IMG/VR virus record: IMGVR_UViG_3300047157_000081
Coordinates: 1 to 28,487 of that record
Length of the DNA stretch: 28,487 bases
Source of the DNA: a virus
Reading direction: 5' to 3' (one strand)
In this document: positions 10,441-11,505 of the stretch, one piece after another
Numbering within the stretch: position 1 is the first letter of the stretch
Layout: each line of letters opens with the position of its first letter
Position numbers and translations under genes: made by a program
Notes under the pieces: generated by a model
The model's database searches: none
Told to the model about the DNA's origin: nothing
The model's input: only the letters and a program-made list of their open reading frames with translations

Positions 10441-10619
10441 AATATTGCGGTTGTAAAGGAACAGGTTCTTTTTCAAAAATTAATCCCTTGTAAGGGGTTA
10501 TTATAGTAGGTAAGACAATTCGCAAGAACCTTACTGACAAGAAGGAATAGACTCTAGTCTAACAGACTTTAAATGCAAGAATGCCTACTAATTTGAGTGG
10601 AGAACCTTTCTGTTTTTTT
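10441..10619 (+). ncRNA. Structured leader between scaffold and capsid genes
   Basis: No gene is seen in 10412-10646. AGGTTCTT (10463-10470) is complementary to AAGAACCT (10524-10531) and, with one G-U pair, to GAGAACCT (10600-10607). Inside the first pairing lies a hairpin TAATCCCT/AGGGGTTA (10481-10500, TGTA loop). GTAAG (10510-10514) can pair with CTTAC (10530-10534), which competes with the outer stem. A TAGAC/GTCTA hairpin follows (10548-10561). A run of Ts (10613-10619) ends the element, 27 nt before the capsid ATG. Mutually exclusive stems plus a T-run suggest an attenuator, processing site or regulatory leader. Confidence 0.45.
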
Positions 10620-10646
10620 AAATAACAATAAAATGGAGAGACAATT

Positions 10647-11505
10647 ATGTCATCACAAATAACTACAGCATTTGTACAGCAGTATTCTGCTAACATACAA
10701 ATGCTATCTCAACAAATGGGATCGTTATTAAGAGACAAAGTCAGTGTTGAAAGTGTTGTTGGAAAAAATGCTTTCTTCGATCAAGTTGGTTCAGTAACTG
10801 CAGTTGAAAAAACTAGCAGACATTCAGACACTCCGCAAATAGATACACCTCACTCAAGAAGAAGAGTATCTCTTGCGGATTATGAATTTGCTGATCTAAT
10901 CGATCAACAAGACAAAGTAAGACTCTTAATTGACCCGACTTCATCTTATGCTCAAGCCGCTGCTATGGCAATGGGAAGAGCAATGGATGATGTGATCATT
11001 GCTGCTGCAACTGGTACTGCGTTTACTGGTGAAACAGGATCAACAAGTCAAGCTGCTCAAACAGCAATCGCTGCATGGTTCTGCTGGTTTAACAATCGCT
11101 AAATTAAGAACTGCAAAAGAAAAGTTTGATTTAGCAAGTGTAGATCCTTCTATCCCTAGACACATTATAGTAGGACCAGAGCAAATCACAAACCTTTTAG
11201 GAACAACTGAAGTAACAAGTTCAGATTTCAACACTGTCAAAGCATTGGCAAATGGTGAAGTAAACTCGTTCCTTGGGTTTTAACTTTACTGTATCAAACA
11301 GACTTAGCAAAATCAGGTAACGACTAGAACTTGTATTGCTTTCGCACAAGATGGTATCACTCTAGGAATTGGTAAAGATGTAAATGCAAGAATAGACGAA
11401 AGAGCAGACAAATCGTATGCTACTCAAGTTTACTACTGCATGAGCATTGGTGCTACTAGAATGGAAGAAGCAAAAGTTCTTGGTATAGTATGTCAAGAAG
11501 CATAA
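10647..11505 (+). CDS. Major capsid protein, three frameshifts
   Basis: ATG 10647 with GGAGAG 8 nt before. The N-terminal frame is MSSQITTAFVQQYSANIQML, SVESVVGKNAFFDQVGSVTA, RHSDTPQIDTPHSRRRVSLA, DYEFADLIDQQDKVRLLIDP and AAAMAMGRAMDDVIIAAATG. After shifts near 11085 and 11285-11325 come LRTAKEKFDLASVDPSIPRH, IVGPEQITNLLGTTEVTSSD and RADKSYATQVYYCMSIGATR, ending LGIVCQEA at 11503-11505. The HK97-fold pattern (N-arm, DY.. loop, P-domain helices, MEE... end) and its place after scaffold identify it. About 286 residues, shorter than T7 gp10 but usual for pelagiphage-type capsids. Its own leader may set its high expression. Confidence 0.85.

Follow-up and report, generated by a model that had tools for sequence, protein, structure and literature searches.

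A conserved structured leader RNA almost certainly exists before the major capsid gene of HTVC010P-type pelagiphages, as judged from compensatory changes among homologous sequences. The window, i.e. the whole stretch of 28,487 nucleotides analysed (a 28.5-kb virus record), is HTVC010P-type pelagiphage DNA, and the readable first 118 residues of its capsid are 97% identical to the HTVC010P and HTVC203P capsids. Phages of this type are among the most abundant viruses of the ocean, and we know of no explanation for the control of their late genes. The structured leader, which is capsid-specific and retained in three clades, offers a testable way into the control of capsid dosage, and it adds an RNA family that is missing from Rfam. 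The leader belongs to the known kind of structured cis-regulatory mRNA leaders and probably tunes the amount of shell protein.

The leader core and its helices

The region under study lies directly 5′ of the major capsid ATG at 10647. Many genes of the window are broken by frameshifts, including the capsid gene and the capsid assembly (scaffold) gene (e.g. 10647-11500), a pattern which would be expected of an uncorrected long-read assembly; the capsid gene itself spans 10647-11505 on the plus strand, as do all features given here, its 3′ end being judged by eye from the sequence. The conserved core, delimited by a covariance model, conservation and covariation, covers 104 nt (10509-10612) and is organised as P1-P2-P3-J34-P4; covariance model R1 assigns it 111 bits (E 3.6e-18), the window being among the model's own sequences. 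It is followed by an A+T-rich spacer of variable length (10613-10634; 31-70 nt from core end to ATG in homologues) and by the Shine-Dalgarno sequence of the capsid gene, GGAGAGA (10635-10641). A search of the window for tRNA and tmRNA found none.

Leaders were collected from the DNA preceding the capsid gene in 80 viral contigs and isolate genomes, with loci then added by motif pattern, resulting in 107 distinct leaders for a tree-aware test and in alignment A1 of 44 diverse leaders; ten leaders with an extended P1 were set aside. Covariation defines P1 at 10510-10534 (GTAAG-ACAA-TTC-GCAA-GAA-C-CTTAC, with a GNRA tetraloop and a 4x1 internal loop), P2 at 10540-10555 (AGAAG-(G)AATAGA-C(T)TCT) and P3 at 10556-10568 (AGTCT-AAC-AGACT). 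In the 44 leaders, the outer and inner parts of P1 are paired in 97% and 95% of cases, with double changes in four of five and in all three pairs, respectively; the GTAAG/CTTAC pairing (10510-10514/10530-10534), which an earlier note on this sequence had taken for a competitor of another stem, is thus a genuine covarying helix. The P1 tetraloop is GTAA, GCAA, GAAA or GAGA (GNRA) in 96 of the 107 leaders. Within P2, pair 36-50 of A1 is GC in 23, CG in 14 and AU, UA or UG in 5 leaders (E_fit 0.004), and P3 is paired in 100% of cells, with double changes in three of its five pairs. Between P3 and P4 runs J34, a conserved single strand (UUUAAAUSCAAG). P4 (10576-10612; covariation and RNAalifold) comprises an outer AGA(G)A/UUUCU helix, an internal loop with AGAA and a variable inner helix, CCTACT...AGTGG. 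The inner helix is 100% paired with four of five pairs doubly changed, and the outer one 96% paired (44 leaders); across leaders the outer helix reads AGAGA/UUUCU, the internal loop has an invariant A(G/U)AAC and the inner helix is hypervariable. All three clades have a 1x4 internal loop with an ANAA strand in both of these hairpins, P1 as well as P4, perhaps as a repeated protein site.

Taken over the 44 leaders, the structure has 95.3% of its cells paired, and 18 of its 31 pairs show changes in both partners, which none of 500 shuffles matches, while sliding the partners by 1-3 columns lowers pairing to 36-46%; the compensatory changes that mark a conserved structured RNA thus go beyond the controls. 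RNAalifold, to which the structure was not supplied, recovers P1, P3 and both parts of P4. The tree-aware test, for which we used our own code to simulate substitutions on a FastTree tree of the 107 leaders, ranked 5565 pairs, and the top eight are all structural, the P3-loop/J34 contact coming first among pairs of P4, P2, P3 and P1; four of their fitted E-values lie at 0.001-0.02 and the other four at 0.26-1.6. Both covariation among homologous leaders and conservation upstream of related capsid genes, which the earlier note had named as checks, are therefore found, the former for the P1-P4 core rather than for the stems it had drawn, and the latter for 10509-10612.

Other origins of this signal were considered and rejected. 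On the antisense strand, plus-strand G-U pairs (e.g. column 85-96, 71 of 107 leaders) would become A-C. Relatives carry a small upstream gene (HTVC010P gp08) which extends into P2, so that the absence of a gene before the capsid, as first described, holds for the window, where this gene is broken by indels, but not for its relatives. P1 is nevertheless not mere coding sequence of that gene: the non-coding upstream type retains P1-P4, and coding is thus not the explanation for the conservation. A 16S-rRNA-like string, CGCAAGAACCTTAC, spotted by eye, is accounted for by the P1 3′ strand.

The core is found exclusively before the capsid gene, in agreement with the capsid-specific leader that had been proposed. 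Of 199 motif matches, 197 are positioned 84-123 nt ahead of ATGTC, where the capsid gene starts, and the remaining two are unrelated; in every HTVC010P-clade genome tested the covariance model has a single strong match, which precedes the capsid, and the best match in the HTVC028P genome is weak (E 0.47) and likewise before the capsid. This search of full phage genomes with the first-clade covariance model found no further copies, and did not find the Baldr leader. A 29-nt core pattern had no exact match in 84,980 bacterial and archaeal species genomes. Rfam 15 gave no match at the gathering threshold in the window, where a relaxed threshold returned chance matches only, and none in 8 homologous loci, so that no known RNA family is recognised, as the earlier note had it; the motifs of Weinberg 2017 are reportedly largely in Rfam. 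To our search the leader RNA is uncatalogued, and an earlier mention in print is possible. More distant capsid relatives, Alteromonas phage ZP6 (L088:1350-1500) and Vibrio phage K300 (L091:1330-1460), have consensus-like sigma-70 promoters (TTGACA/TTGACG...TATAAT) before the capsid, followed by a different leader; that of ZP6 has two hairpins with a common GTAGCCA...GGT loop, and a search for relatives of it found ZP6 alone.

The P3-loop contact in sister clades

Two sister clades, with capsids about 80% and 60% identical to those of the window's clade, retain the core layout. With the first-clade covariance model, HTVC028P-type leaders and a single Baldr-type leader are matched at E-values of 0.003-1; as all of these matches fall at the expected place before the capsid, homology of the leader across clades is likely, the single E-values being modest. 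HTVC028P-type leaders keep P1 with its ANAA/C loop, P3 and P4, and their P3 loop pairs fully with J34 in an H-type pseudoknot (UUGG/CCAA, UUGC/GCAA, UUAG/CUAA, GUGA/UUAC). This helix is paired in 100% of cells, with double changes in two of four pairs, and the whole structure is matched by none of 500 shuffles. Covariation is strongest at the homologous loop/J34 position (CG 21, AU 17, GC 7, UA 1), and the same pair tops covariation in the Baldr clade, whose capsid is 60% identical (AU 24, UA 9, CG 2, GC 1, two exceptions). On these comparative grounds the alignments show an H-type pseudoknot of the P3 loop with the strand after P3 in both sister clades. In longer leaders of the Baldr clade (L178-L257) an extra hairpin also seems to form a pseudoknot with an upstream CCGA/CCGU (CGA/UCG, CGU/ACG).

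In the window's clade the H-type pseudoknot is reduced to one coevolving position, C10563 of the P3 loop with G10575 of J34, which corresponds to the closing pair of the sister-clade pseudoknot. Base 3 of the P3 loop and its J34 partner are C-G in 40 leaders and A.C in the remaining 67, with zero exceptions and about six switches. Since A.C accounts for 67 of 107 leaders, the contact is not a simple Watson-Crick pair in the HTVC010P clade.

The region upstream of P1

Just upstream of P1, homologues have CCCTTG followed, after about 15-17 nucleotides, by a TATTATAA-like stretch, an arrangement kept in both the ORF-bearing (79) and the mostly non-coding (27) upstream types. In the ORF-bearing type codons confound the conservation of this promoter-like element; in the non-coding type the TATTATAA-like stretch lies inside a palindrome, TTAATCCCTTG...AAGGGATTAA. 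Leaders that lack the small upstream gene have this palindrome, and a phage regulator might use it as its operator. The corresponding region of the window, identified by homologue conservation, is TAATCCCTTG...AAGGGGTTATTATAG (10481-10508), shortened by roughly 20 nt; the record carries indel errors, and in view of the indels elsewhere in it the shortening may be an artefact. The "strong hairpin" pointed out earlier, TAATCCCTTGTAAGGGGTTA at 10481-10500, is present and corresponds to the conserved palindrome around the promoter-like element, in the shortened form of this record. Standard promoter scans called no sigma-70 promoter at the element, which we infer from its arrangement to fit a promoter plus operator with a start a few bases before P1. 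Transcription would then begin at a promoter of the host RNA polymerase, and the leader would be the 5′ UTR, forming the 5′ end of the capsid mRNA.

The earlier note had proposed a switch further upstream, in which AGGTTCTT (10463-10470) pairs with either of two copies of (A/G)AGAACCT (at about 10524 and 10600), resulting in two alternative long stems that, with a T7 tract (10613-10619), would act as an attenuator or processing site. All the quoted letters are present; the window can form both pairings, and its folding z-score is strengthened by them. However, the full 8-bp pairing is found in 1 of 106 homologous leaders, the window alone, where shuffles give an expectation of 1.1, and AGGTTCTT lies upstream of the likely transcript start; the T tract varies among homologues. 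No conserved intrinsic terminator (a G+C-rich hairpin with a U run) was called in HTVC010P or Baldr leaders, and the sole match there in a terminator scan of the window is the hairpin in the promoter-like region. As the match is at chance level and the T7 tract variable, this switch is a peculiarity of one sequence: as a conserved mechanism the alternative stems are already refuted, and we give them practically no chance. The region of 170-236 nt does fold more stably than dinucleotide shuffles, a check that the earlier note had named (z -2.7 and -2.5), but the core alone does not (z -0.5 in the window, mostly -0.1 to -0.95 in others), the excess stability of the window region being driven by the long stem with AGGTTCTT.

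Possible roles of the leader and related systems

A competing pairing may nevertheless exist, though with another partner. The 3′ strand of P4 reads CUUUCUG (10606-10612), a potential anti-Shine-Dalgarno by its complementarity to the ribosome site of the capsid gene. In the HTVC010P clade 106 of the 107 leaders allow at least five contiguous pairs (G-U included) between the P4 3′ strand and this Shine-Dalgarno (UGGAGAG); in 13 leaders the partners are GUCUCU and GGAGAC. Duplexes of each P4 strand with its own Shine-Dalgarno come to -5.84 kcal/mol versus -5.46 kcal/mol for permuted partners (3 of 5000 permutations, in a test that ignores relatedness), and in HTVC010P the capsid Shine-Dalgarno has the highest predicted pairing among 19 genes (P 0.95). 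Shuffling of the core lowers the predicted pairing only from 0.72 to 0.64, and the anti-Shine-Dalgarno is clear in the HTVC010P clade only, not clearly so in the sister clades. The P4 strand is pyrimidine-rich for reasons of its own, so that its complementarity to a purine Shine-Dalgarno may be incidental.

The leader is plausibly regulatory, as had been suggested, and the most likely mechanism, in which we place slightly less than even confidence, is that it controls capsid translation in cis as a translational switch. In the compact fold CUUUCUG would be held in P4 and the Shine-Dalgarno would be free; upon opening of P4, CUUUCUG would pair with GGAGAG and the capsid gene would be shut off, P4 formation and Shine-Dalgarno pairing presumably being mutually exclusive. 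The trigger might be a phage protein (the capsid itself or a different one), a protein of the host, a metabolite or ion, or the kinetics of folding. A more specific version, a gated pseudoknotted RNA that senses a phage protein or host signal and sets major capsid protein synthesis by exposing or masking the ribosome site, is put forward tentatively; if true, capsid dosage in these tailed DNA phages would be under the control of an RNA switch that several pelagiphage clades have conserved.

The ligand could be the capsid or another virion protein, which would bind the leader RNA as gp32 does its own message. The strict linkage to the capsid, the recurrent ANAA internal loops of P1 and P4, which could be protein sites, and a layout shared with the T4 gene 32 leader (pseudoknot, A+U-rich spacer, ribosome site) argue for such autogenous repression, which we nonetheless consider improbable, as we know of no evidence for RNA binding by HK97-fold capsid proteins. 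The leader could also work without any switch, its compact 5′ end, starting with P1, constitutively protecting the abundant capsid mRNA against ribonucleases of the host or the phage. P1 would indeed be placed next to the transcript start, a conserved island of HTVC010P-like phages includes a gene for a putative ribonuclease (PMC6487183), and the T4 gene 32 mRNA, which has a pseudoknot in its leader, is more stable than any other T4 message (PMC3014915); however, a protective hairpin alone needs neither invariant unpaired bases in J34 and the internal loops nor a coevolving tertiary contact, and we hold this role to be possible but rather unlikely.

A further comparison is with the put RNA of phage HK022, which has about 70 nt in two stem-loops and lies near a promoter (PMC9378689). 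By analogy, the nascent leader would bind the host RNA polymerase and allow readthrough of the long late operon. Like put, it is a phage-only, cis-acting, multi-hairpin RNA, probably promoter-proximal, and these phages are without an RNA polymerase of their own; an analysis of the related phage Skadi-1 found no riboswitches, tmRNA, terminators or phage RNA polymerase (PMC10504331). On the other hand, put is located at early promoters, whereas the capsid leader occupies a mid-operon site and has about 104 nt, four hairpins and a pseudoknot contact, outside the two-stem-loop architecture of put, and no terminators have been identified for the polymerase to overcome. We thus regard such antitermination as distinctly unlikely, less so only than the AGGTTCTT stems. 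Nor does the leader have the make-up of an intrinsic-terminator attenuator.

With translational riboswitches that sequester the Shine-Dalgarno the leader shares conserved unpaired bases, a pseudoknot and a 3′ strand able to pair with the ribosome site, but it differs from these in having no metabolic gene context, ligand or Rfam match. The glutamine riboswitch of marine phage Melnitz, where it is tied to tmRNA, and of Pelagibacter phage Mosig (PMC9004378) is likewise a structured RNA whose phage carriers infect streamlined marine bacteria; it is, however, of a known class, whereas the capsid leader matches no Rfam family. The closest likeness is to the gene 32 leader of T4, T2 and RB69, an autogenous translational operator composed of a pseudoknot, an A+U-rich spacer and the ribosome site (PMC3014915). 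In both, the leader of a phage gene contains an H-type pseudoknot, which for the pelagiphages is seen in the HTVC028P (100% of cells) and Baldr clades, and an A+U-rich spacer precedes the ribosome site; the pelagiphage leader differs in being located at another gene, in its additional hairpins P1, P2 and P4, and in having no known protein ligand. By analogy, and with no claim of membership, the capsid leader would work most like that of T4 gene 32.
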